Assembly (NCBI GenBank): GCA_947465645.1
Contig: CANIBQ010000011.1
Location: forward strand, 20,529 to 84,528
Length of the DNA stretch: 64,000 nucleotides
Direction: 5' to 3'
Origin: Acidobacteriota bacterium
GTDB lineage: Bacteria; Acidobacteriota; Vicinamibacteria; Vicinamibacterales; UBA2999
In this document: positions 5,986 to 37,086 of the stretch, piece by piece
Layout of the letters: each line of letters opens with the position of its first letter
Numbering within the stretch: position 1 is the stretch's first letter
The notes under the pieces: generated by a model
Told to the model about the DNA's origin: nothing
Seen by the model: the letters and a program-made list of their open reading frames with translations, nothing else
Database searches by the model: none
Made by a program: the position numbers and the translations under genes

Positions 5986-6591
5986 TCAGCCGCCCGGCTC
6001 GGTGTGTGCCGAATCCGCCGCCGGCAACACGTCTCGCGCCCAGTCCGCTCGCTTCCAATCGGGCACGGGCGGTGTCTCCCCCGTCCGCGGAATGAAGGGG
6101 GACGGTTCGGCGAGCTGATACTTCGGGATGTATCGCGGGCAGTTCGGATAGATCCTTTGCAGCCGGATCCGGAGAACGAACAGCGCGCCCGGATACTCTG
6201 CAACGGCGTGGGCGTCCTGCACGACGTCCGCGTCACCCTCGAGCCGGAGGCGGCGCCGGGCCTCGAAATCGATCAGCAGCAGGCCAACGGGGGGGCTCGC
6301 GGCGATGTTTCCCGCCGACAGGAACATGCCGTTCCCGTCGTACCAGCCGAACGCCAGCGTCCGCCGGTCCAGGATCCGTATGAAGCCCGGGTCGCCAGCC
6401 TTGATCGAGCACGTGGGTTGACCTGACGGATCGCAGGTAGCCAGAAACAACATGTCCCGCGATGTGATGAACGCCGCGTCGGCGTCGGTCAGTTCGGCGT
6501 GGACCTTGACCTCTTCCAGTCGATCCGCGAGGCGGCGAGCGTCGAACTGATCCTGCAAGGCGCGCTGCGCCGGGTGATACATCGATGACAT
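5986..6591 (-). CDS. Pyridoxamine 5'-phosphate oxidase-like flavin-binding protein
   Basis: 201 residues with the split-barrel PPOX signature: FLATCDPSGQPTCSIKAGDPGFIRILD, then LAFGWYDGNGMFLSAGNI and PPVGLLLIDF. Such proteins bind FMN, F420 or haem and act as oxidoreductases; the exact cofactor is not readable. GAGGG lies 6-10 bases before ATG 6591, supporting this start over the later ATG (MYHPAQ). The gene is followed at once by the DUF3565 gene. Upstream (6615-6663) lies a pair of family A repeats. Confidence 0.85.
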   Translation of the reverse strand: MSSMYHPAQRALQDQFDARRLADRLEEVKVHAELTDADAAFITSRDMLFLATCDPSGQPTCSIKAGDPGFIRILDRRTLAFGWYDGNGMFLSAGNIAASPPVGLLLIDFEARRRLRLEGDADVVQDAHAVAEYPGALFVLRIRLQRIYPNCPRYIPKYQLAEPSPFIPRTGETPPVPDWKRADWARDVLPAADSAHTEPGG

Positions 6592-6614
6592 CGGGTGCCC
6601 TCACGTGGGTCGCA

Positions 6615-6663
6615 CGTAGTGTCCGGCTTCAGCCCGCCCGTAGTGTCCGGCTTTAGCCGGACC
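6615..6663. repeat. Family A dispersed repeat, two units
   Basis: Unit 2 is CGTAGTGTCCGGCTTTAGCC followed by GGACC (6639-6663). Unit 1 (6615-6634) is the same with TTC for TTT and lacks the last bases. The core GTCCGGCT..AGCCGGAC is a palindrome. The right unit ends one base before the stop codon of the sugar dehydrogenase gene. Confidence 0.9.
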
Positions 6664-6664
6664 G

Positions 6665-8068
6665 TTAAGGACGCAGCACGCGGATGGTGCCGTCCTGTTT
6701 GTTGAGTAGAAACACCTGGTTACCGGCGCCGATGCCGAAGCGGAGATCGACGCGCGTGGCGGCCGGGTTCTTTTCCTTGACCAGCTCCATCAGCGTCTTC
6801 GCGGCACCGCCGCTGTTGAACAGGACGCGGCGCATCCCGTCCTGCCCCCCGCTCGGCAGCCGGTCGGCGTTGATGTAGAACACCTCGCCGCTCGGGTTGT
6901 CGCCGAACAGCACCAGGTTCGCGAGCTGCGGGATCGCGGTGCCACGGTAGACGATCGTGCCGGTGATCGCGACGTCGTTGTTGTTGACGCCGAGCAACGG
7001 GTCGCGATGGTCGTACTCGACCAGGGGATAGACCATTTTGGGATCGGCGCGCGTCCCATCGAGCTTGATCTCCGTGCGGCTGATGAAGCGGAAGCTCGAC
7101 TCCCACGTGTTCCAGCCCAGGTTCGCGCCGGCGGTCACGAGACTGAGCTCCTCGACGATGTTCTGGCCGATGTCGGCGAGGAAGAGATTGCCGTTCTTCG
7201 GATCCCAGCCGAAACGCTGCGGGTTGCGGACGCCGTAGGCATAGATTTCCCCGAGCGTCTGCGGGTTGTTGTCGTTGACGAAGGGGTTGCCCGGCGGGAT
7301 GCCGTATTTCTTGTTCGCGCTGTTGGCGCCGAGCGGGTCGATCCGGAAGATCTTGCCGAAGGCGGAGTTGAGGTTCTGCGCCATGTTGAGCGGATCGCCG
7401 CCGCTGCCGCCGTCGGCGACGCCCATGTAGAGGAGGCCGAAGTCGGCGCTGCCCGGCGTCGCGTTGGGGTTGAAGGCGAGATGACCCGCGTTGTGGTTGG
7501 CGAACGGCTGTCGGAGCCGAATCAGCTCACGCGGCGCGCCGCCGTCGTAGGTGGCTGCGGCGGGGTTCTTGGCGGTCCACTCGAGCAGCACCGTGTCGTG
7601 CGTGTTCATCCCGCCGGCCGGCACGAAGTCGGGCGCCGGCTGCATGTTCGACGAGTCGGTGTAGGTGTAGAACTTGCCGAATCCGCGGGTGCCTGCCTGG
7701 TTGAACTGCGGATGGAAGGCGAAGCTCTGCACGCCGCGCTCCCTCCCCTGGTGCTGGACGCTGACACCCGAGTTGGCCGCGTTGACATCGTGGTAGCGCG
7801 TGACCGTCTTGCCGTCGTAGCTGACGCTGTAGAGCGGGCCGCGCATGTCGTTGACGAACAGCCGGCGCGTGCCCGGCTCGTCCGCGAGGAGCATCATCCG
7901 CGCCGCCACGCCGTCGATGGCCGGGATCGACGCGAAGTCGGCGATGTTCACGCGGATCACGCCCTCGGTGGCGGCGATCGGCTGCGGGAACGGATCGATG
8001 TTCTGCGCGAAGGCGGAGGGTGAGGCGAGCAGCAGGACCGCCGCGGCCCGAATCAGATGGCTGGTCAT
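6665..8068 (-). CDS. PQQ-dependent sugar dehydrogenase family protein, exported
   Basis: 467 residues with a cleavable signal peptide ending SAFAQ. The rest is a six-bladed beta-propeller of the glucose/sorbosone dehydrogenase family: LFVNDMRGPLYSV, FHPQFNQ, HNAGHLAFNP, GVADGGSGGDP and GVRNPQRFGWDP. Catalytic His in the NHNAGHL segment is typical. It should oxidise sugars in the periplasm using PQQ, though substrate and cofactor are inferred from the family only. Both ends abut family A repeats (6615-6663 and 8088-8143), so the gene sits in a repeat-bounded cassette. No strong ribosome-binding site precedes ATG 8068. Confidence 0.9.
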   Translation of the reverse strand: MTSHLIRAAAVLLLASPSAFAQNIDPFPQPIAATEGVIRVNIADFASIPAIDGVAARMMLLADEPGTRRLFVNDMRGPLYSVSYDGKTVTRYHDVNAANSGVSVQHQGRERGVQSFAFHPQFNQAGTRGFGKFYTYTDSSNMQPAPDFVPAGGMNTHDTVLLEWTAKNPAAATYDGGAPRELIRLRQPFANHNAGHLAFNPNATPGSADFGLLYMGVADGGSGGDPLNMAQNLNSAFGKIFRIDPLGANSANKKYGIPPGNPFVNDNNPQTLGEIYAYGVRNPQRFGWDPKNGNLFLADIGQNIVEELSLVTAGANLGWNTWESSFRFISRTEIKLDGTRADPKMVYPLVEYDHRDPLLGVNNNDVAITGTIVYRGTAIPQLANLVLFGDNPSGEVFYINADRLPSGGQDGMRRVLFNSGGAAKTLMELVKEKNPAATRVDLRFGIGAGNQVFLLNKQDGTIRVLRP

Positions 8069-8087
8069 GGTCGGAGACTAACACGTA

Positions 8088-8143
8088 CGTAGTGTCCGGC
8101 TTGAGCCGGACCTTAGTACGTAGTGTCCGGCTTTAGCCGGACC
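8088..8143. repeat. Family A dispersed repeat, two units
   Basis: Two direct copies (8088-8112 and 8119-8143) of CGTAGTGTCCGGCTT(T/G)AGCC plus GGACC, separated by six bases. The second copy touches the stop codon (8144-8146) of the pyrophosphatase gene. Confidence 0.9.
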
Positions 8144-8665
8144 TCAGGCCGATTCCGTGATCAGCGTGAGCGCCGCAGCCGCGTCTCCCCATCCTACGAT
8201 CCGCACGTCCTTGCCTTCGAGCGCCGTCGCGATCAGCGCCAGGTTCTCGAGCTCGGCCCGCACCCGCGCGGGAAGGCCGTCAATGCTCGTGATGTCGGCC
8301 TCCCGGCGCGCCGCCTCGGGCACGGCGAGAATGCGATCGTTGCGGATCCGATTCGACGGGTCGTGATTGGTGTCGTTCTGCTCGATGTGCATCACGCCGA
8401 TCGCTCGGCACGACAGCACGACGCCCGGGTACGACGCGACGTCCCACAGCACGAGGACGTCGAGCGGATCCCCGTCGGGCCCTTCCGTCGAGGGGATGAA
8501 GCCCCAGTCGAAGGGGTAGGTCACACCAAGCGGCAGCGGACGCGACACCGACATCGCCTCCAGGCGTGGTTCGTACTTCAACTTGAGCGTCGATCCCCGC
8601 GGAGATTCGACGACGACGTGGAAGATGCCGGGATCAGCGAAGGCAGGGATCGCCGCGAGGTTCAT
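8144..8665 (-). CDS. ppa: Inorganic pyrophosphatase, family I
   Basis: 173 residues from ATG 8665. The metal-binding signature DGDPLDVLV is intact, with VTYPFDWGFIPST before it and RNDRILAV after it, all characteristic of soluble family I enzymes. It hydrolyses pyrophosphate to two phosphates and so pulls biosynthetic reactions forward. Length matches the bacterial family (about 170-180 residues). The start is set by homology: everything upstream in frame is non-coding and overlaps the leader of the divergent ATP-grasp gene. The gene ends directly in a family A repeat. Confidence 0.92.
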   Translation of the reverse strand: MNLAAIPAFADPGIFHVVVESPRGSTLKLKYEPRLEAMSVSRPLPLGVTYPFDWGFIPSTEGPDGDPLDVLVLWDVASYPGVVLSCRAIGVMHIEQNDTNHDPSNRIRNDRILAVPEAARREADITSIDGLPARVRAELENLALIATALEGKDVRIVGWGDAAAALTLITESA

Positions 8666-24830: not shown

Positions 24831-25964
24831 TCAGAACCTGACGCTGAGCGCCGCGGAGAGGGAGTGCTGGCGAAGCGTCAGGACATTCACGCGCTCCTGA
24901 TCGCTGGTGCTCCCGGAAACCCCCAGGTGGAACCGGCCGCCAAGGGCGGTGCTCACCTCGCCGGCGACGGTATTCGATCCGAGCACCTCGAAATCGTTGA
25001 GGTTTCGCACTTCCTCCCGCGCCGAACCGCGGCTGTAGCGCGCGCCGACGAAGCTGGTTCCATCGGCGCCGAAATAGCGTCGCAACGCCCCGTGGTACGA
25101 GCGCGATGTGGCGCCGGTCCTGTCCGGCACGTAGAACAGCCGGCTGGCAAGCAGCCAGTTGCCCACGTACTTGTTGAGCGTGGCCACGTAGATATCGGTC
25201 TTCGAACTGAAGCCGAGCCGCCGGTACCCGAGCGATCCTTCGAACCCCGCGCCGAGCGATTGAAAGAGATCGGCGGCGTAACGGTACTCCGGGTAGAGCC
25301 GCTCGTTGGGGGCCCAGCCGGCCGACACGTAGGCGTAGGTGCCGGCGCGGAAGCGCGGGTACATCTCGAGCTCGAGCTGGCTATCGGCCAGACCGAACCG
25401 CTCGGCACGGGAACCGCGCACGATGATCGAGCCGGCCGGCGTGGCGCGCCGCACCGAGATCTGGCGCTCGCGCCAGGAGGTGCGTCGATCGCTGAACCAG
25501 TCGTAACTCTCGCTCGCCGACACCTCCCATGGGCGCAGCCGATCGATCGCGTCCACCGCGCGCTGCCGTCCCTGCAGGAACTGCGTGCTGTGCGGCGCCA
25601 GCTCCAACCCCTGCTGCGCCAGCGCCTTCGCCTCACGCGGGCGCCCGGACCAGATTTGGACGTTCAACAGCGCCCCGAGCGCGTCGGTGTCAGCCGGACG
25701 CGCGGCGACGACCTGCTCGAGAAGGGTGCGCGCCTCGTCGTACGAGCCGCCCCACGAGAGCACGGTCCCGAGCAACAGGCGCGCGTCGTCGTCGGCGGGC
25801 GCGACCGCGAGCCGCTCGCGCAGCTGGGCGATCGCGGCAGCGTGATTGCCGTCGATCGCGAGCGCTCGCGCCTGCGCCAGCCCGTCGATCGTTTGCCCGG
25901 ACGCGACGGCGGCCGCATACACCGGGTATGCCAATAACGCGAGAAACAGGGTTCTGGGGATCAC
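24831..25964 (-). CDS. TPR + YaiO-type outer membrane beta-barrel protein
   Basis: 377 residues from GTG 25964. A signal peptide (TLFLALLAYPVYAAAVASGQ) is followed by TPR-like helices (NHAAAIAQLRERLAVAPADDD, YDEARTLLEQVVAARPADTD). A YaiO barrel then begins SESYDWFSDRRTSWRERQISVRR. Later strands include FGLADSQLELEMYPRF and the terminal LSAALSVRF with C-terminal Phe. In E. coli, yaiO lies near the GT2 gene yaiP. Here it diverges from a GT2 locus across a 122-base gap (25965-26086), so it is the likely outer membrane exit for the polymer made there. GTG is chosen because longer readings have no signal peptide in place. Confidence 0.87.
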   Translation of the reverse strand: MIPRTLFLALLAYPVYAAAVASGQTIDGLAQARALAIDGNHAAAIAQLRERLAVAPADDDARLLLGTVLSWGGSYDEARTLLEQVVAARPADTDALGALLNVQIWSGRPREAKALAQQGLELAPHSTQFLQGRQRAVDAIDRLRPWEVSASESYDWFSDRRTSWRERQISVRRATPAGSIIVRGSRAERFGLADSQLELEMYPRFRAGTYAYVSAGWAPNERLYPEYRYAADLFQSLGAGFEGSLGYRRLGFSSKTDIYVATLNKYVGNWLLASRLFYVPDRTGATSRSYHGALRRYFGADGTSFVGARYSRGSAREEVRNLNDFEVLGSNTVAGEVSTALGGRFHLGVSGSTSDQERVNVLTLRQHSLSAALSVRF

Positions 25965-26086
25965 GGTACGCTCATCATCTCCGCTCCTGGCGCCCGTCCG
26001 GCGCCGCGGAGGAATCGGACGGTCACAGTCTATTCCCTTCGCTGGCGCCGGATGCCAGGCGTAATCGTCTATGCTGGCCGTGCAGG

Positions 26087-27613
26087 ATGGCATCATCGTC
26101 CGACCAGGATTCCGACGATCCCGAAGCCGCGCTCCGGGCGGCGCGCCAACGGTTCGTCTCGGGCTTCCTGCAGCGATGCGACTCGTTCACGCTTCTCATC
26201 GAACGCATCGGCGTGCTCGGCGCGTCGGCGGAGAGCGAATCGCTGATCCAGCTCGTGCACCGGACCACTGGGCTCGGGGGCATGGTCGGCATGCCCTCCG
26301 TGAGCGACCGCGCGCGCGAGCTCGAGGACATCCTCAGAGCTACCGGCGCCCTCGACCTCGTGGCCGCTCGCAGAGCGGTTGATCTGCTTCGACAGGCCTT
26401 CGAGGCCGATCTCGCCGCCCCGCCGCCGGCCTGGACGGCGCCTCCAGGCGAACCTCGGGGCAGGCACGTGCTGGTCGTCGAAGACGACCGTGAGCAGCGT
26501 GCCCTCCTGACCTCGGGGCTGCGGCGGGCCGGCTACAGCGTCACGAGCGTCGAGCGCGGAGAGGACGCGCTGGCGTCCGCGCGCGACACCCGGCCTGACC
26601 TCGTGCTCCTCGACATCGACCTCGCCGGTGTTTCCGGCCTGGACGTCTGCCGTTCGTTCCGCCTTGACGCCGACCTGCACGACACGCCGATCATCTTCGC
26701 CACCGCGCGCGCGACGTCAGGCGACCGCATCGAAGGCCTCACGGCGGGCGGAGACGATTACCTGATCAAGCCGGTGGAGCCGGCCGAGTTGCTGCTGCGC
26801 ATCGACCTCGTGATGCGGCGGCGGAGCCAGGCGGCGCCGGTACCCGAGTCGATCCTGACCTACGACGCGTTTCTCGCAGCTGCCCGCGAACTTCTGGGCC
26901 GCGGCCCCGGCGCGCTGGCGCTGGTGCGCCTGCCGCGCAACTGCCCGCTCGACGCAACGCGCCTGGTGACTCGCGAGCTGCGCCGCAAGGACCTGGTCGG
27001 GTGGTACGACCAGACGCACGCGATGATCCTGCTGCCCGACGTCGCGCCTCCTGAAGCGGTGCAGCAGCTGTCGGCGCTGGCCTCGGCCCTCGCTGCGGCC
27101 GAGATGCCGATCCACGTCGGCCTAGCGCCCGCCGGGCGCGGCTCCACGTTCGCCACCCTGCTCGATCTCGCCGACCAGGCGCTCGCCGAAGCGCGCTACC
27201 GGCGGCAGGAGGTCGTGCTCCATGGGCAGGCGCCGCCGACCGAGGCGGCGGCCCCCACCTCGATCGTCGTCGCCGAGGACGATCCGGACGTGATGCGCGT
27301 GCTCGACGGCCGGCTGTCCGCGGCCGGGTACCGAACGCTGCTCGCATTCGACGGCCAGGAGGCGGTCGACGTGATCGTCGCGAACGCACCGGATCTCGTG
27401 CTGCTCGACCTGATGATGCCGAAGCTCACAGGGTTCGACGTGCTGGTGGAATTGAAGCGCATCGGCGCGCACATGCCCCCGATCGTCGTGATCTCGGCAC
27501 GCGGACGAGAGGCCGACGTGACGCGGGCCTTCGAGCTCGGCGCCGCCGATTACCTGACCAAGCCGTTCGGCCCCGAGGAGCTCCTGGCGCGACTCTCGAG
27601 GCTCGTCAGGTGA
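26087..27613 (+). CDS. HPt - REC - degenerate GGDEF - REC signalling protein
   Basis: 508 residues. Residues about 15-120 look like an HPt helical bundle with LIQLVHRTTGLGGMVG carrying the phosphorylatable His. REC1 (about 128-245) has VVEDD, the Asp in LVLLDIDL and the Lys in YLIKP. Next (about 260-385) is a diguanylate-cyclase-like fold whose catalytic GGDEF is replaced (LVGWYDQTHAMILLPD), with the ADxAL-like LADQALAEARYR intact, so probably non-catalytic. REC2 (about 390-508) has VAEDD, LVLLDLMMP and TKPFG. It would relay phosphate from the hybrid kinase at 30452. ATG 26087 has a weak ribosome-binding site. Confidence 0.88.
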   Translation: MASSSDQDSDDPEAALRAARQRFVSGFLQRCDSFTLLIERIGVLGASAESESLIQLVHRTTGLGGMVGMPSVSDRARELEDILRATGALDLVAARRAVDLLRQAFEADLAAPPPAWTAPPGEPRGRHVLVVEDDREQRALLTSGLRRAGYSVTSVERGEDALASARDTRPDLVLLDIDLAGVSGLDVCRSFRLDADLHDTPIIFATARATSGDRIEGLTAGGDDYLIKPVEPAELLLRIDLVMRRRSQAAPVPESILTYDAFLAAARELLGRGPGALALVRLPRNCPLDATRLVTRELRRKDLVGWYDQTHAMILLPDVAPPEAVQQLSALASALAAAEMPIHVGLAPAGRGSTFATLLDLADQALAEARYRRQEVVLHGQAPPTEAAAPTSIVVAEDDPDVMRVLDGRLSAAGYRTLLAFDGQEAVDVIVANAPDLVLLDLMMPKLTGFDVLVELKRIGAHMPPIVVISARGREADVTRAFELGAADYLTKPFGPEELLARLSRLVR

Positions 27614-28681
27614 GTGCGCGTGCTATCGCTGGCTGATGCGCTACGCGCGCTCCTCGTGCCGTTCATCGCGGTCCTCGGCGTCCTCCTGGTGACGCTGCTG
27701 ATCGTGCTCGTCGCGCAGCGCGGCATCCGCGAAGTGGCGTGGCAGCTCCACGCACGGCGACGGCGGCACTGCGAGCCGCTCGTGAACGCCTGGGTATCCG
27801 CACCCGCCGACGGAGCCGCCCTGGATCGCCTGGTCCAGCAGTGCGGGGGCGCACGCCGGCACGCCGCGGCCGAGCTCCTGCTGGCGCCGCTGCGCTCGAT
27901 CGCCTGGGACGTCATCGAGCGCAGCCGCGATGCCCTCACCCGCCTCGGGCTTCGCGATCAGTGGCTGAAAAGTCTGGGCGACCGCCGGTGGTGGGTGCGA
28001 TGCGAGGCGGCACAGGCGCTCGGTCTCATCGCCGCGCCGGAGGCGGTGGCGCCGCTGGCCGCGCGGCTGAACGACGACCACGAGGAGATGCGGGCGGCGG
28101 TGACCGAAGCGCTGGGACGGATCGGGGATGACTCCGTGCTGGCCATGCTGGTCGCACAACTCCAGAACCCGCGGCATCAACGCACCCGTCTGGTATCGGC
28201 AATCCGATGTTTCGGCCCCGCCGCGGCAGCCGCGCTGATCCGCTGGAGCGATGAGGAGTCGTCGAATCGACAGGTGGTGGCGGAGGTACTCGGACAGATT
28301 GGCAGCTCGGCCGGACTCGACACCCTGACCGGATGGACCGGCGATCCGGACCCGGCGCTGCGGGAGGCCTGCTTCCGCGCGATTGGCGACATCGGACTCG
28401 ACGAGCGCGCGTACTACTTTGCCCTCCGGGCGCTGGGCGATCCGCATCCGCCGGTCAGGGCCATGGCCGCGCGCGCGCTCGGCCGGAGTGGACGCGTCGA
28501 CTGCGGCCGGTACCTCGCCGCGCGCCTCGCCGACGAGTGGACGGTCGCGGCCCACAGCGCGGCGGCGCTCAAGCAACTCGGCGGGCCGGGCCTGCAGTAC
28601 CTGACCGAATCGGCCCGGGCGAGCGGCCCTGGCGCGGACCTCGCGCGCCAGATGCTGTGGGAGCTCGAGGCCGAGGCCTGA
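27614..28681 (+). CDS. Membrane-anchored HEAT-repeat protein
   Basis: 355 residues. Residues 12-35 (LLVPFIAVLGVLLVTLLIVLVAQ) are one membrane helix. The rest is made of HEAT/PBS-lyase-type helical repeats, for example WVRCEAAQALGLIAAPEAVAPLAARLNDD, EEMRAAVTEALGRIGDD, PPVRAMAARALGRSGRV and WTVAAHSAAALKQLG. It probably scaffolds the synthase complex at the inner membrane. GTG 27614 directly follows the TGA of the signalling gene, and an in-frame GTG at 27620 is equally possible. Its stop is two bases before the GT2 start. Confidence 0.88.
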   Translation: MRVLSLADALRALLVPFIAVLGVLLVTLLIVLVAQRGIREVAWQLHARRRRHCEPLVNAWVSAPADGAALDRLVQQCGGARRHAAAELLLAPLRSIAWDVIERSRDALTRLGLRDQWLKSLGDRRWWVRCEAAQALGLIAAPEAVAPLAARLNDDHEEMRAAVTEALGRIGDDSVLAMLVAQLQNPRHQRTRLVSAIRCFGPAAAAALIRWSDEESSNRQVVAEVLGQIGSSAGLDTLTGWTGDPDPALREACFRAIGDIGLDERAYYFALRALGDPHPPVRAMAARALGRSGRVDCGRYLAARLADEWTVAAHSAAALKQLGGPGLQYLTESARASGPGADLARQMLWELEAEA

Positions 28682-28683
28682 CC

Positions 28684-30093
28684 ATGCGCGCCTCCATTGT
28701 CGCGGCGGTGACAGCGTGGGACCTCGCGGTGCTCCTGTACTTCGTGACCATCAACACGATCTACCTGCTGTTCTGCGTCGTCGCCTTCGTGCAGCTTCGA
28801 CACCACCGGCGGCGATGGACGCCGCGACGGCTCGATGCCGTGCTGCAATCGCCCGCCACCCCGGGCATTTCGGTCATCGCGCCCGCCTACAACGAGGAGG
28901 CGACGATCCGCGAGAGCCTCCGGTCGCTCCTGCTCCTGCACTACCCGCAGTTCGAGGTGATCGTGGTGAACGACGGATCAAAAGACGGCACGCTGCGCGA
29001 GCTGGTCACGGGATTCCGCCTCCTGCGGGCGCCCGCCGGCTACGATCAGCCGATCGCCACCAAGCCGGTACAGGCGGTCTACCGTTCGCTCTCCAACGCC
29101 GACCTGGTCGTGCTCGACAAGGTCAACGGCGGCAAGGCCGATGCGATCAACGCCGGCATCAACGCGGCGCGCTACCCGCTGGTGTGCGTGATCGACGCCG
29201 ATTCGCTGCTCGAAGACCAGGCGCTCACGCGCGCGGCGCTTCCCTTCATCTAGGATCCGACCACGCTGGCGGCCGGGGGCATCGTGCGCATCGTCAACGG
29301 GTGCACCGTCGAGGCGGGCCGCGTCACGCGGGTGGGGATGCCAGGATCGTGGCTGGCGGGACTGCAGGCGGTCGAGTACCTCAGAGCGTTCCTGGCCGGG
29401 CGCGTCGCGCAATCCGCGATGAACAGCCTGTTGATTATCTCGGGAGCGTTCGGCATCTTCCGCCGCGACGCCGTCGTCGCCGTCGGCGGCTTCCGGCACG
29501 ACACGATCGGGGAGGACATGGAGATCGTGACCCGCCTGCACCGGTGGGCCAGGGATGCGGGACGGCCGTACCGGATCGTCTTTCAGCCGGACCCGGTCTG
29601 CTGGACCGAGGTTCCGGAATCGCTGCGCATTCTCCGCAACCAGCGCAACCGCTGGCAGCGCGGCACGCTGCAGGTGCTGAGCTATCACCGAGGCATGATC
29701 GGCCGTCCCCGGTACGGTGCCGTGGGTCTGTTCGCGATGCCGTATTTTCTGATTTTCGAGGCGGCAGGCCCTCTGATCGAGCTGAGTGGCTACCTGCTGA
29801 CGCTCGTCGCGCTCGCGCTCGGCCTGCTCGACTGGCGGTTCGCGGAACTCCTGTTTCTGGCGGCGGTGCTGTACGGTACGCTCATCTCCCTCGCATCCGT
29901 GCTGCTGGAAGAGCTCTCGTTCCGCCGCTATCCGCGGCTGAGCGACCTGCTCCGGCTGGTCGCGTTCGGCGTGATCGAGAATTTCGGCTACCGGCAGCTC
30001 ACGACGTGGTGGCGCGTCCGCGGCATCGTCGACTTCCTCCGCAACAAGCAAGGGTGGGGCACGATGACGAGAAAGGGATTTACACAGGCATGA
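28684..30093 (+). pseudogene. Processive GT2 polysaccharide synthase with one in-frame amber codon
   Basis: 469 codons. An N-terminal membrane helix (LAVLLYFVTINTIYLLFCVV) precedes the GT2 domain: VIAPAYNEEATI, VVNDGSKDGT, VIDADSLLE (DxD at 171-173), TIGEDMEIV (base) and RNQRNRWQRG, the Q(x)xRW signature of processive synthases. C-terminal helices follow. Codon 190 (29251-29253) is TAG, where the usual sequence is IEDPTT, so a GAG to TAG change is the simplest cause. The frame is otherwise intact through 30093. TAG is an ordinary stop elsewhere here (24762-24764, for example), so general recoding is unlikely. The stop overlaps the next gene's ATG. It could be a true pseudogene, readthrough or a sequencing error. 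Confidence 0.85.
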
Positions 30094-30455
30094 GGCTGCT
30101 GCTCGTGGAGGACGATCTCGACATCCAGATCATCGCGCGTAGAGCCTTGAAGCGCGCCGGCTTCGAGGTGACGGTGGCTGCCAACGGCGTCGAGGCGCTC
30201 GTGGCCGCGCGCGCCCAGATGCCCGGCGTCATCCTCCTCGACTGGATGATGCCGGACATGGATGGCCCGGAGGTCTGCCGGCAGTTGAAGGCCGACGTGG
30301 CGACGAGCAGCATTCCGGTGATCTTCCTGACCGCGCGATCGCAGCAGGCCGAGATCGCCCGCGGTCTCGCGCTCGGGGCCGCGGGCTACATCGTCAAGCC
30401 GTTCGACGCGCTCACCCTCGGCGACGAAGTGCGACAGATGCTGGGGCAGCCGTGA
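30090..30455 (+). CDS. Single-domain response regulator
   Basis: 121 residues forming one receiver domain: LLVEDDLD (acidic pair), GVILLDWMMPDMDG (phosphoryl Asp), IFLTARSQ (Thr) and YIVKPFD (Lys). No output domain, so it acts like CheY or Spo0F as a phosphate shuttle or a direct protein-binding switch. ATG overlaps the GT2 stop (ATGA), and its TGA overlaps the GTG start of the hybrid kinase, tying it into the same transcript. Confidence 0.93.
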   Translation: MRLLLVEDDLDIQIIARRALKRAGFEVTVAANGVEALVAARAQMPGVILLDWMMPDMDGPEVCRQLKADVATSSIPVIFLTARSQQAEIARGLALGAAGYIVKPFDALTLGDEVRQMLGQP

Positions 30456-33097
30456 AGACGCTTTCGATCCGCACCCGCGTCACGGCGGCGTTTCTGCTGC
30501 TCATCACGATGGCGCTGGTCGAGGGGGCGGTCGTGCTCTATGTACAGCGTGAAAGCTCGCGAGCGATCGAGGACGCGGCACGAACGCAGATGATCCTGGT
30601 GGACCACTTCGCGGTCGCCCGCGCGCTCGATGCGATGCGGGCGGCGTTCCGGGGCTTTCTCATCACGGGGCACGCCCGGGAACAGGCCGAGTACGACGCG
30701 CAGGGCTTGTACTACGAGCGGGCGATCCCGCCCGCCCGGGCGTTGATCACGGACGAGGAACAGCGAGCCCGCTTCGCGCGCATAGTGACGATGGTCACCG
30801 AGTGGCGTGCCCTGACGCGCGAGGTCATGGAGCAGCGCAAGGCCGGAGCGGACGTGACCGCGCGGTTCGTGAACGAGACGGCGGCTCAGTTCGAGGCGCT
30901 CCAGCGCGAGATGGACGCATTCGAACGCCGCCAGACCGACATCAGCACGCGAGCGGGCGACCTCGCGCAATCGCGGGTCCGCGCCGCGACCATCACCCTG
31001 ACGGCCATCCCGCTCGTGGCCGTGGTCTTCATGTTCGGCCTGCTCGTCGCCACCGACCGCGCCATTCTCACGCCGCTGCTGGGGCTGACCAGGTCCGCGC
31101 GACGGCTGGCCGGGGGGGACTACGAGGCCCCGCTGCCGGTGACGCGCAATGACGAGATCGGGGTGCTCGTCGGCGCCTTCTCGGAAATGCGATCGGCGGT
31201 CCACGCGCGCGCATCGGACGCCGCCACGGCGGAGCAGCGCATCCGCACGGCACACGCGGAGCTGCTCGCGATCATCAACACCGTGCCGGCGGCGCTCGTC
31301 ATCCTGGATCCCGATGGATCGATCCGCATGCAGAACAAGGCGGCCGAACATCTCCTGGGCACGGCGCCGGACACGCCGCTCGCACGCAAGACGTATTGGC
31401 AGGGCTTCGCCATGCGCGACGGGGCCGGCAGGCCGCTTCGTATCCGCGACATCCCGCCGGTGCGCGCGCTGTCCGGCGTCGAGGTCATCGGCGAGGAGAT
31501 CGACGTGCAGCGCGCCGACGGCCATCGCGCCGTCATCCTGGTGGGCGCGGCGCCGTTGCGCAACGCCCAGGGCCTCGTCACCGGTGCGGTCGCCGGCTTC
31601 CACGACATCACGCGTCTGCGCGAGCTCGACCGGATGAAGGACGAGTTCGTCGCCATCGTCAGCCATGAACTGCGCACGCCGCTGACGGCCATTCGCGGCT
31701 CCCTTCAGCTGCTGCTCGCCGACAACGCGGTGTCCGACCCCGACAACCAGCAACTCCTCGTCGTCGCGCTCAAGAGCTGCGACCGCCTGGTCCGCATCAT
31801 CAACGACATGCTCGACATCTCGAAGATCGAGGCCGGACAGTTCAAGCTCAGGATCGGCCCGCTCGTGGTCCGGAACCTCGTGCAGCAGGCCGTGGACGGC
31901 GTGGAGAGCGTGGCCGCTCCGGCCGGTGTCGCGCTGGTGGTCGACGTCGCGGCGGACATCGCGGAGATCAGTGGCGACGCCGACCGGCTGACGCAGGCGC
32001 TGGTCAACCTGCTCTCGAACGTCGTGAAATTCGCTCCCCGGGGCTCGACGATCACGGTGTCGGCGCGCGAGACGCCGGAGGCCGTGGTGTTCAGCGTCGC
32101 CGACCGCGGACAGGGCATCGCGCAGGATGACATCGCCCGTCTCTTCAGGAAGTTCCAGCAGCTCGACGACGCCGGCACACGACGCGCCGGCGGCACCGGC
32201 CTCGGTCTTTCGATCACCAAGGCGATCATCGAGGAGCACGGCGGCACGATCTCGGTGGACAGCGTCGTCGGGCGGGGCACGACGTTCACGTTCACCATCC
32301 CGCGGGCCGAGCGGTCGCCCGGCACCGAGGCGGCCGCTGTCGCGTCTCCGCGGCCGGCGACCGCCGCCATCAGGACGGTGCTCATCGTCGACGACAACGA
32401 CGCGAGCCGCGGCACCCTGGCACAGGCGATGCGGGTCGGCGGCTTCCGGATCCTGGAGGCTTCCACGGGTGCTGAGGCGGTCGAGGCGGCGCGCCGTCAC
32501 CGGCCCGACGCGATCACGCTGTCGGTCTCGTCGCAGGAGCGCGGGAGCCGGCGGGCCCTCGAGGAACTGGCCCGCGATCCGGCGACCATGCAGATCCCGA
32601 TCGTGATCGCCATCGACGGTGGCGCGCCGATCACGTCCGCGGAGAAGCCCTTCGACATCTCCGATCTCGTCTCACGGGTGCAGCGGATGCTCCACGGGCG
32701 CGTCCACGCCACGGTGCTGGTGGCCGACGACGACGCCGATCTGCGGCTCGTCCTCCGCGAGACGCTTGGACGCCACGGGTTCCGGGTGATCGAGGCGGCG
32801 GACGGGAGGGAGGCCATCGACACAGCGGCCCGCGAAGTACCGGATCTCGCGCTGCTCGATCTGCGGATGCCGCGCGTCCACGGCCACGACGTGATCCGCG
32901 CACTGAGAAAGAACGAAGCCACCGCGCACATGCCCATCATCGTTCTCTCGGGCAGTGCCGGCGAGCGCCATTCGCTCGAGTCGCTCGTGCTGGGCGCGAA
33001 CATGTTTCTGGCCAAGCCCGCCGAGCCGCACGAGCTTGTTCGGGAGATCGATCGGCTCCTCCGGCAGGATCGCGCCGAGCCGGCGGCCACCAAGTGA
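30452..33097 (+). CDS. Hybrid sensor histidine kinase with tandem receivers
   Basis: 881 residues from GTG 30452. Two membrane helices (about 10-30 and 180-203) flank a periplasmic helical CHASE3-like sensor. HAMP follows (about 204-258), then PAS (about 270-385), HisKA with VSHELRTPLT (His 405), and HATPase with NLLSNVVKFA and GGTGLGLSI. Receiver 1 (about 640-755) keeps VDDND but has Ser where the phosphoryl Asp should be (ITLSVSS). Receiver 2 has ADDDA, LALLDLRMP and AKPAEP and looks active. It should sense an envelope signal and feed phosphate to the HPt/REC protein and the small regulator of the same operon. Confidence 0.92.
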   Translation: MKTLSIRTRVTAAFLLLITMALVEGAVVLYVQRESSRAIEDAARTQMILVDHFAVARALDAMRAAFRGFLITGHAREQAEYDAQGLYYERAIPPARALITDEEQRARFARIVTMVTEWRALTREVMEQRKAGADVTARFVNETAAQFEALQREMDAFERRQTDISTRAGDLAQSRVRAATITLTAIPLVAVVFMFGLLVATDRAILTPLLGLTRSARRLAGGDYEAPLPVTRNDEIGVLVGAFSEMRSAVHARASDAATAEQRIRTAHAELLAIINTVPAALVILDPDGSIRMQNKAAEHLLGTAPDTPLARKTYWQGFAMRDGAGRPLRIRDIPPVRALSGVEVIGEEIDVQRADGHRAVILVGAAPLRNAQGLVTGAVAGFHDITRLRELDRMKDEFVAIVSHELRTPLTAIRGSLQLLLADNAVSDPDNQQLLVVALKSCDRLVRIINDMLDISKIEAGQFKLRIGPLVVRNLVQQAVDGVESVAAPAGVALVVDVAADIAEISGDADRLTQALVNLLSNVVKFAPRGSTITVSARETPEAVVFSVADRGQGIAQDDIARLFRKFQQLDDAGTRRAGGTGLGLSITKAIIEEHGGTISVDSVVGRGTTFTFTIPRAERSPGTEAAAVASPRPATAAIRTVLIVDDNDASRGTLAQAMRVGGFRILEASTGAEAVEAARRHRPDAITLSVSSQERGSRRALEELARDPATMQIPIVIAIDGGAPITSAEKPFDISDLVSRVQRMLHGRVHATVLVADDDADLRLVLRETLGRHGFRVIEAADGREAIDTAAREVPDLALLDLRMPRVHGHDVIRALRKNEATAHMPIIVLSGSAGERHSLESLVLGANMFLAKPAEPHELVREIDRLLRQDRAEPAATK

Positions 33098-33722: not shown

Positions 33723-35648
33723 TCACGCTTCACTGGCTCTGGGAAGAAGGACGCGGAATGTGGTCCCGCGGCCGGGCGTCGACTGCACCTCGACTTCCCC
33801 GTCATGCATCTGGATGATGCGGTAGACCATCGACAGCCCGATGCCTGTCCCATGATCCTTCGTCGTGAAGTAGAGGTCAAAGATCTTTCCGAGGTGTTCG
33901 GGCGGAATGCCGACGCCCGTGTCTTCGACGCGCACCTCCAGCCGGTCGCGCGACGCGGTGGCGCCCGCGAGCCGGAGCGTACCGCCGTTGGGCATCGCCT
34001 GGCAGGCGTTGATTGCCAGGTTGAGGAATGCCTGCCTGAGCATGGCAGCATCGCCGTTGATGCTGGGCAGCGACGCGGGCGCGTCCACCTCGACTTTCAC
34101 GTGATGCTTCTCCGCCTCCGGCGCGAGCACCGGGACGATCTCGTCGAACAGCGACGCGAGGCTGACCGGCTGCAGGCGGATGTCTTCCGGGCGGGTGAAC
34201 TTCAGGAACCCCTGCACCACCTCGTCGAGCCGGCGGACCTCGTTCTCGATGATCTCGACGTGCTGCAGCGCGCCTTCCATGGGCGCGGTCGTCGCGGACT
34301 CGCGCGCCGCGGCAGCGAGACCGAGGCCGCCTGACGCCGCCACCGGCTGCCGCGCGGAGACCACCGCCCCGCCGCGGATCTTCGTCCGCAGCAGCTCGAG
34401 GTGGATCATCATCGCGTTGAGCGGGTTCTTGACCTCGTGGGCGATGCCGGCGGTGAGCCGGCCAAGCGCGACCAGCTTCCGGGAATAGGCGATGGTCGAC
34501 TGCATCCGCGAGAGATAGGCGACGTCGCGCGCGACCAGCAGCACGCCGACCAGCTCGCCGTCCTTGCCCTCGATGGCGTTGGTCATCAGGAGCAAGCTGT
34601 GGGTTCCAGGTTCTGAGTTCCGGGTTCCGGGTTCGACGGTTCCAGGTTCGACGGTGCCGGGTTCGGTTTCGACGGGGCCGCGCGAGCGTCTCGTGGCCAG
34701 CGTCTCTTCGACAATCTGCCGGTAGGGATGGCCGTCGGGCAGCAGCCCCCGCAGCGCGCCGCCGATGCCAGTGGCCGGGAGCGTCGATTCCATCGCGGGG
34801 TTGCTGAACAGCAGCTCGCCCGAGGGGTTGAACAGCGCCACCGCATCCTCGAGGTGCTCGACCGCCGACTGCAGGTTCGCCTTCTGCCCCGCAAGCAGCG
34901 TCCGGTCCGCGGAGAGTTGCTGGCTGACGTTGTTGAAATAGGTGCCGAGCTCTCCGAACTCGTCACCCGGCGGCAGATCGAGGGTGACGCCGAACTCGCC
35001 CTTGCCGAGGCGCGTCAGCCCGCTGCGGATCACGTGGATCGGCCGGAGCATCACCTGCGCGAGCAGCGCCGCGACCAGGATCGCCACCGCCAGCGCCACC
35101 GCCGCCGTCAACAGCGCCGGCTGCAGCGAGGCGGTCAGCGCCTGCCGCATCAGCAGCGTCGAGACGCCTATCCGGATCGATCCGAACGGCGTCTCGTTCA
35201 GCATCATCGGCTGCCGGACCTCGAGCGTCTGCCCTTCCTGCGAGTAGATCACCCGGAGCTGCTCGAGCGGTCCTGCGCCGGTCAGCGTCGCCATGTCCGC
35301 CCGCTCGGGGAGCCTGCGTCCCACCATGGTCATGTCGCTGTCGGCGATGACCGTGCCCCCGGCGTCGAGGATGGCGGCGTCAGTGACGCTCTCGCCGTAG
35401 ATGGCGGATTCGAGGATCGCGCGCAGCCCAGGGTCGGCGCGCAAGGCGGGATACGGGTCCTGGCTTTCGCCGACGACCTCGCGGGCGCGGTGGAAGATCG
35501 CGTTCGAGAGGAGCTGGCCGCGCGCGTAGCTCTCGTGCAGCACGACGCCGGCAAGGCGGGTCACAAACAGCGCGCTCAGCGCCACGACGGCGACGCCGAC
35601 GATGACGGTCACGCCGACGATCTGTTTCGCCTTGATGCTCAGACGCAT
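33723..35648 (-). CDS. NtrB-like sensor histidine kinase
   Basis: 641 residues. Two helices (about 10-32 and 175-198) enclose a periplasmic CACHE-like sensor. A HAMP, then a PAS-like region (about 265-365), precede HisKA with GIAHEVKNPLNAMM and HATPase with NACQAMPNGG, VGIPPEHLG and GTGIGLSMVYR. In the PAS region an EPGT-repeated stretch (TVEPGTVEPGT) is encoded by tandem repeat DNA at 34604-34680. It phosphorylates the NtrC-type regulator encoded directly upstream in the same operon. ATG 35648 is followed by a proper N-terminal helix. Confidence 0.92.
   Translation of the reverse strand: MRLSIKAKQIVGVTVIVGVAVVALSALFVTRLAGVVLHESYARGQLLSNAIFHRAREVVGESQDPYPALRADPGLRAILESAIYGESVTDAAILDAGGTVIADSDMTMVGRRLPERADMATLTGAGPLEQLRVIYSQEGQTLEVRQPMMLNETPFGSIRIGVSTLLMRQALTASLQPALLTAAVALAVAILVAALLAQVMLRPIHVIRSGLTRLGKGEFGVTLDLPPGDEFGELGTYFNNVSQQLSADRTLLAGQKANLQSAVEHLEDAVALFNPSGELLFSNPAMESTLPATGIGGALRGLLPDGHPYRQIVEETLATRRSRGPVETEPGTVEPGTVEPGTRNSEPGTHSLLLMTNAIEGKDGELVGVLLVARDVAYLSRMQSTIAYSRKLVALGRLTAGIAHEVKNPLNAMMIHLELLRTKIRGGAVVSARQPVAASGGLGLAAAARESATTAPMEGALQHVEIIENEVRRLDEVVQGFLKFTRPEDIRLQPVSLASLFDEIVPVLAPEAEKHHVKVEVDAPASLPSINGDAAMLRQAFLNLAINACQAMPNGGTLRLAGATASRDRLEVRVEDTGVGIPPEHLGKIFDLYFTTKDHGTGIGLSMVYRIIQMHDGEVEVQSTPGRGTTFRVLLPRASEA
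34604..34680. repeat. Family I tandem repeat in frame in the NtrB-like gene
   Basis: Units of GGTTCC(A/G)GGTTC and GACGGT(T/G)CC follow each other about six times and encode repeated VEPGT in the linker before the kinase core. The rest of the gene is not repetitive. Confidence 0.8.
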
Positions 35649-35651
35649 GAC

Positions 35652-35694
35652 AGGTCAAAGGTCAAAGGGAAAAGGGCAAAGGTGATCCTTTGAC

Positions 35695-35696
<2 letters not shown>
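35652..35696. repeat. Family E repeat (GGTCAAAGG type)
   Basis: AGGTCAAAGGTCAAAGGGAA and AAGGTGATCCTTTGACCT form a hairpin between the NtrC-like and NtrB-like genes. Similar text occurs at 37893-37940 and 56370-56396. Confidence 0.75.

Positions 35697-37086
<1,390 letters not shown>

Follow-up and report, generated by a model that had tools for sequence, protein, structure and literature searches.

Loci for exopolysaccharide synthesis have been described in several bacteria. In Bacillus, according to the available part of PMC9800504, the ydaJKLMN locus includes YdaK, a GGDEF-type receptor of cyclic di-GMP (c-di-GMP) that acts via its I-site on the synthase complex. In Xanthomonas (xagABCD) and in iron oxidisers (sfz/sfb), clusters with a glycosyltransferase of family 2 (GT2) make up exopolysaccharide loci for which biofilm or stalk roles have been proposed or shown, as far as the available parts of PMC3609779, PMC4643136 and PMC8250860 go. 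Here we analyse a locus of six genes from an Acidobacteriota bacterium, located in a stretch of 64,000 nucleotides (GenBank assembly GCA_947465645.1, contig CANIBQ010000011.1, positions 20,529 to 84,528, forward strand), hereafter called the window. The locus associates a YaiO-family outer-membrane protein with a membrane-anchored HEAT-repeat protein, a GT2 synthase gene and three phosphorelay proteins. An earlier description made from the letters alone (the sequence-only reading) had proposed a new exopolysaccharide system and knew of no characterised system with this set of parts; no description of the HEAT/YaiO/GT2/receiver set was found in the open-access literature. From the comparisons reported below, we consider it probable (about 0.7) that the family of this cluster represents synthase-dependent exopolysaccharide systems in which HEAT is a subunit and which are under phosphorelay control and probably also under c-di-GMP control. 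The features of the locus are the following (window coordinates):

24831..25964, minus strand: YaiO-family outer-membrane protein, 377 amino acids (GTG start chosen, frame open to 26096), with a signal peptide, tetratricopeptide repeats (TPRs) and a barrel of about 14 strands.
26087..27613, plus strand: regulator made of a histidine phosphotransfer domain (HPt), a receiver domain (REC), a degenerate GGDEF domain and a second REC, 508 amino acids (Pfam Hpt and two Response_reg).
27614..28681, plus strand: membrane-anchored HEAT-repeat protein, proposed partner of the synthase, 355 amino acids (HEAT_2, 107 bits), with a gap of 0 to the upstream gene.
28684..30093, plus strand: GT2 synthase gene, 469 codons, interrupted by a TAG, with a gap of 2 after the HEAT gene (Pfam Glyco_tranf_2_3, 98 bits).
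29251..29253, plus strand: the in-frame TAG of the GT2 gene, codon 190 of 469.
30090..30455, plus strand: stand-alone receiver, 121 amino acids (Response_reg, 94 bits), Asp and Lys present, overlapping the GT2 stop by ATGA.
30452..33097, plus strand: hybrid histidine kinase, CHASE3-HAMP-PAS-HisKA-HATPase-REC (degenerate)-REC, 881 amino acids, overlapping the receiver gene by GTGA.

The six genes thus lie where the sequence-only reading had placed them, with the junctions it had described. Its membrane-anchored HEAT protein was borne out by the HEAT_2 match and by a single hydrophobic stretch, N-terminal in position, and its domain layout for the HPt protein by the Pfam matches and the loss of the GGDEF motif.

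To evaluate the conservation of this organisation, 80 loci were picked solely by GT2 similarity, being the best 80 of at least 573 confirmed relatives. They span at least 13 bacterial phyla and one archaeal metagenome-assembled genome, phyla being read from record names. HEAT genes were searched with a profile in two rounds: the first found 69 loci and missed some divergent HEAT genes, and the second, rebuilt from those, was used in the control described below. A HEAT gene was adjacent to the GT2 gene, upstream on the same strand and at most 400 bases away, in 70 of the 80 loci and was fused to it in a single chain in 5 others, which amounts to 75/80 loci with HEAT directly upstream of GT2 or fused to it. 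Three Nitrospira loci (L060, L062 and L078) carry it elsewhere in the locus, and it was not seen in two (L006 and L041), each cut at a contig edge. In all, single-chain HEAT-GT2 fusions were found in six genomes. The same pairing was recovered in more closely defined groups. Of the 20 loci from the order to which the nearest genome belongs, 19 have HEAT immediately before GT2 and the remaining one (L111) is cut, so that 19 of 19 assessable loci show the pairing; HEAT was found in 26/27 loci of Clostridia, the exception (L157) lying at a contig edge, and in 10/10 loci of Bacilli, of which L131 and L158 duplicate L061 and L053. As for its frequency, the family occurs in 47/200 Bacilli genomes sampled, in 27/291 genomes of Clostridia (the class of Parasporobacterium) and in 23/149 genomes of the nearest acidobacterial order. 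HEAT homologues reach 100% identity, protein P0122 of another data set being exactly the HEAT protein of the window.

As a control for HEAT linkage, the only linkage it covered, the 30 best PF13641 matches, drawn from 32 of the genomes that carry the loci, were examined together with 1.5 kb of flanking sequence on each side. The 5 GT2 genes scoring at least 556 bits on the family model all have a HEAT gene, and HEAT is absent within 1.5 kb of the 25 other GT2 genes (25/25; at most 235 bits or no score). From the conservation counts and this control, the gene arrangement is far beyond chance. The proposal of the HEAT protein as partner of the synthase is strengthened by the single-chain fusions and by the confident model of one of them described below. 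The sequence-only reading had also expected the six parts as an ordered set. The parts are conserved and their exact order is not: the complete set was present in 3/20 loci (L112, L117 and L123) from the nearest genome's taxonomic order, and the arrangement of the window in L117 only, with a co-directional YaiO. That reading had named scattered genes as an observation that would speak against a system; HEAT and GT2 stay paired, and YaiO lies on a separate contig in several genomes. On a separate matter, the HEAT-GT2 pair of L027 is carried by a contig named Thermoplasmatota archaeon, which may be a binning error.

The fold of the synthase was judged on the model of a natural HEAT-GT2 fusion. 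This single chain folds confidently (pLDDT 90.7, pTM 0.86), and its best Foldseek matches are hyaluronan synthases, followed by BcsA and chitin synthases. The motifs DxD, ED and QRNRW announced by the sequence-only reading were found in the window as DAD, GED and QRNRW, and the DxD, ED and QxxRW motifs are kept in the GT2 relatives. The motifs, GT-A fold and membrane helices of a processive membrane GT2 are thus all present. No match to the MshEN/T2SSE_N N-terminal domain was detected in the Pfam scan of the GT2, which does not place it with the NfrB or XagB/Sfz2 types, and the same scan gave no match to a PilZ domain. Searching the PDB with the 3' portion of the GT2 alone returned no match. 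Membership of PgaC was tried and rejected, the GT2 scoring 146.9 bits on the NCBIfam PgaC_IcaA equivalog TIGR03937, whose cut-off is 422.3.

The outer-membrane protein belongs clearly to the YaiO family, with 136.3 bits on PF19413 (cut-off 23.9) and 122.3 on TIGR04390 (cut-off 32). The YaiO-type barrel of the sequence-only reading stands with the addition of N-terminal TPRs (Pfam TPR_19), which it had omitted. An AlphaFold2 model (pLDDT 91) exhibits 8 helices followed by 14 long strands, the succession of TPRs and barrel that characterises the exporters BcsC, PgaA and PelB. In a Foldseek search with this model, ranks 1, 2 and 37 are BcsC and rank 5 is PelBC, the remainder being mostly porins. 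We next searched PF19413 in 50 whole genomes of the loci with an E-value of 0.001, membrane class being read from record names. These genomes were classed as 30 with an outer membrane and 19 without (5 Actinomycetota, 13 Bacillota and 1 archaeon), L059 falling in neither class. Matches were obtained in 24/50 genomes, 22 of them above the cut-off, and they were distributed as 24/30 genomes with an outer membrane versus 0/19 without (Fisher p 1e-8). Genomes without an outer membrane are expected to lack the barrel; what matters is that they retain the other parts of the system. In the nearest genome's order, YaiO sits within 9/20 loci. Its placement and orientation differ from locus to locus, so the divergent arrangement seen in the window does not hold in general. 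The role of YaiO as the exit, as proposed earlier, is therefore retained for a part that is frequent where an outer membrane exists and whose model loosely resembles polysaccharide exporters, and its divergent placement is dropped as a general rule. In the window, an Omp85/POTRA gene of the outer-membrane assembly type (PF01103, PF07244; 23439-24764, plus strand) is convergent with the YaiO gene.

Regulators are also frequent neighbours of the pair. A gene with a receiver domain lies at most 5.5 kb upstream, on the same strand, in 64/80 loci, and 8 of the 16 loci without one have less than 3.4 kb of upstream sequence. In the order of the nearest genome, receiver domains are located just upstream of HEAT in all 19 assessable loci, with two receivers in 15, and a co-directional receiver follows GT2 in 8/20 loci, itself followed by a kinase in 7. 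The linkage of receiver and HPt regulators to HEAT-GT2 proposed from the window is thus found in most loci of the family. We aligned the HPt proteins (22 rows), among which the group of the window comprises 14 rows (the window, L001 and L112-L123). In this group the HPt His is present in 14/14 rows, the first receiver Asp in 14/14 and the second in 13/14 (L001 has a Glu). The GG(D/E)EF motif is lost in the 13/13 ungapped rows, window included, so the signature of a diguanylate cyclase is missing there, and an RxxD upstream of the former GGDEF site is present in the same 13/13 rows. Judged from these residues, the HPt protein of the window's group matches the pattern of a putative I-site c-di-GMP receptor, similar to YdaK. 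Other loci keep an HPt-REC-GGDEF-REC protein with a Pfam GGDEF above the cut-off (L004, L049 and L053), the alignment showing an intact GG(D/E)EF in L004, L053 and L057. In L059, a protein with an ODP (metallo-beta-lactamase-like) domain followed by GGDEF and REC (6526-8526) directly precedes the HEAT-GT2 fusion, perhaps as an oxygen- or redox-sensing input. In Thermus, a histidine kinase shares a single frame (L050:6326-8500) with stretches of FecR-like and TPR type, and this frame immediately precedes REC-HEAT-GT2.

The kinase had been described with two receivers. Both domains are there, and the first lacks the phospho-acceptor Asp (PDAITLSVSSQE); therefore only the second receiver looks functional, its Asp being kept in the receiver alignment, as is the kinase His. 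A single GT2-REC chain with a C-terminal receiver was found in P0088, one of the 120 GT2 relatives listed; this chain could also stem from a sequencing slip, because a four-base overlap of the two genes is the normal arrangement. It could be argued that the regulators adjoin GT2 and HEAT by chance or through shared transcription, and that their control is transcriptional and not exerted on the synthase. A single receiver without output domain and a further pair of kinase and sigma-54 regulator next door would be compatible with this. We regard it as unlikely, since REC genes stand beside HEAT-GT2 in many phyla (64/80 and 19/19, as above), Pfam detects no DNA-binding domain in the cluster's two response regulators, and a receiver is joined to GT2 in P0088. 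For control acting on the synthase itself, we tentatively propose that the phosphorylated stand-alone receiver might dock on HEAT-GT2 and gate the synthase directly, the HEAT protein being an adaptor that would read the state of the receiver and, in some lineages, that of c-di-GMP. The neighbouring pair (33723-37086, minus strand), a sensor kinase with HAMP, HisKA and HATPase domains and a sigma-54 response regulator, adjoins the cluster in the window.

The GT2 gene of the window deserves a specific analysis. The sequence-only reading had treated it as one continuous gene and overlooked the TAG at 29251-29253, which splits the frame into two open frames with the DAD, GED and QRNRW motifs falling on both sides. 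The interruption implies that the window copy is therefore either non-functional or carries a sequencing or assembly error; the stop may be either a strain mutation or such an error. P0002 and P0003, the two closest relatives listed (91% and 90% identity), have the complete length of 469 amino acids, and a few relatives of 327-416 amino acids occur among the 120 matches listed. That the window copy would be a decaying pseudogene cluster, uninformative on how the system works there, is a real possibility that we place somewhat below even odds. It is favoured by the TAG itself and by the matches listed, among which no intact GT2 is more than 91% identical to the window copy (in a database clustered at 90%). 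It is opposed by the five other genes, all open with their catalytic or phosphorylation residues kept, by the intact GT2 relatives, and by the fact that a single stop in a contig is indistinguishable from an assembly error.

Among 100 loci of two sets, three protein families recur in the regions near GT2, beside HEAT-GT2: acc in 16 loci, GHb in 16 and GHn in 11, the latter including the Acidobacteriota loci L112 and L016. None of the three is present in the window. Members of the acc family share 29% identity over 383 amino acids between L010 and L053. Examples of these recurrent neighbours are L053:11404-14637, L010:12693-13901 and L060:7428-9140. Those tried in Pfam gave no family above the cut-off, TPRs in L015 excepted, and a PDB profile search with the large Bacillota neighbour gave a best E-value of 0.63. 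Judged by eye, two of the families look like glycosidases that are either anchored in the membrane or secreted, and such enzymes would be in keeping with trimming of the polymer, by analogy with other systems.

Several observations weigh against an exopolysaccharide system of this composition. In addition to the TAG that interrupts the GT2 of the window, the cut-offs of the NCBIfam polymer-synthase equivalogs (PgaC, PgaA and CelA) are not reached, and PcManGT, whose title names a mannosyltransferase, ranks first among the VIA matches of the GT2. The YaiO model superposes loosely on BcsC and PelBC (TM 0.41-0.44, rmsd 9.5-12 A), porins filling most Foldseek ranks, and its VIA matches are of the FadL, OmpG and CymA types together with TPR proteins, BcsC, PgaA and PelB not being among the 50 matches listed. 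YaiO is inside only 32/80 loci and was not seen in 6 of the 30 outer-membrane genomes (L015, L036, L050, L066, L069 and L076). Finally, an upstream REC is absent from 8 loci with at least 6.6 kb of upstream sequence (L027, L042, L060, L062, L065, L069, L075 and L078). One may ask whether the GT2 glycosylates a membrane lipid or an envelope acceptor, in which case HEAT would be a scaffold for substrate or membrane and YaiO a porin without relation to the system. This appears improbable to us: among the other top-ranking Foldseek matches nearly all are processive synthases (hyaluronan, cellulose or chitin), QRNRW is conserved, and the synthase is linked to a TPR-barrel YaiO and to glycosidase-like neighbours.

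For the synthase-dependent exopolysaccharide system that we favour, the following mechanism can be proposed. The defining core would be the membrane HEAT protein and a processive GT2 resembling hyaluronan and cellulose synthases. On the cytosolic side, the GT2 would build the polymer from a nucleotide sugar, and it would extrude the chain through the membrane helices that it carries itself; the HEAT protein would presumably dock on the GT2 from that same side as an obligatory partner. YaiO, with its TPRs and barrel, would be the exit through the outer membrane where one exists. Phosphate may leave the kinase via the second of its receivers, reach the HPt protein and then pass to the single receiver, and this receiver and the HPt-REC-(GGDEF)-REC protein would set the activity of the synthase. 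Proteins with an intact GGDEF probably make c-di-GMP locally, and the degenerate domain of the window's lineage may bind it instead.

If this is correct, polymer synthesis would be switchable by phosphorylation and not by c-di-GMP alone, and likely matrix genes would be named for soil and sediment bacteria. Direct gating by the phosphorelay, if true, would be a HEAT-based control module that occurs across 13 or more bacterial phyla and is common to bacteria with one and two membranes.

Known systems resemble the cluster in part. The sequence-only reading had noted that yaiO of E. coli lies near the GT2 gene yaiP. The adjacency in yaiO-yaiP-yaiS is a likeness, and the comparison stops there: yaiP was rejected as a relative of the GT2, with 47 bits on the family model versus at least 369 for members, no HEAT or REC match was found in 10 kb of the locus, and in their place the locus contains YaiS, a deacetylase, and an acyltransferase gene that is interrupted. 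Xag/sfz was likewise rejected as a described relative, its GT2 (Sfz2) being of the EpsE_N type with a BcsB-like partner and no HEAT in the available descriptions. The degenerate GGDEF that keeps RxxD brings the HPt protein close to YdaK, as proposed above; HEAT, HPt and REC are unmentioned in the available part of the text on ydaJKLMN, the comparison being made by description only. The NfrBA-YbcH system of E. coli and its NGR polysaccharide, as presented in the available part of PMC8669469, share a GT2, an outer-membrane protein and local signalling control with the cluster, which differs by its HEAT protein, HPt and receivers and by a GT2 lacking the MshEN match. The Bcs (cellulose) and Pga (poly-N-acetylglucosamine, PNAG) systems share with it a membrane GT2 with QxxRW and an outer-membrane protein made of TPRs and a barrel, and the cluster proteins score weakly on the NCBIfam models for PgaC and PgaA. 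They differ from the cluster, which has a HEAT partner in place of BcsB or PgaD and a barrel of about 14 strands. If the proposed system is confirmed, a whole class of synthases would have a constant partner and a signalling input that are not in the cellulose, PNAG and NfrB systems.

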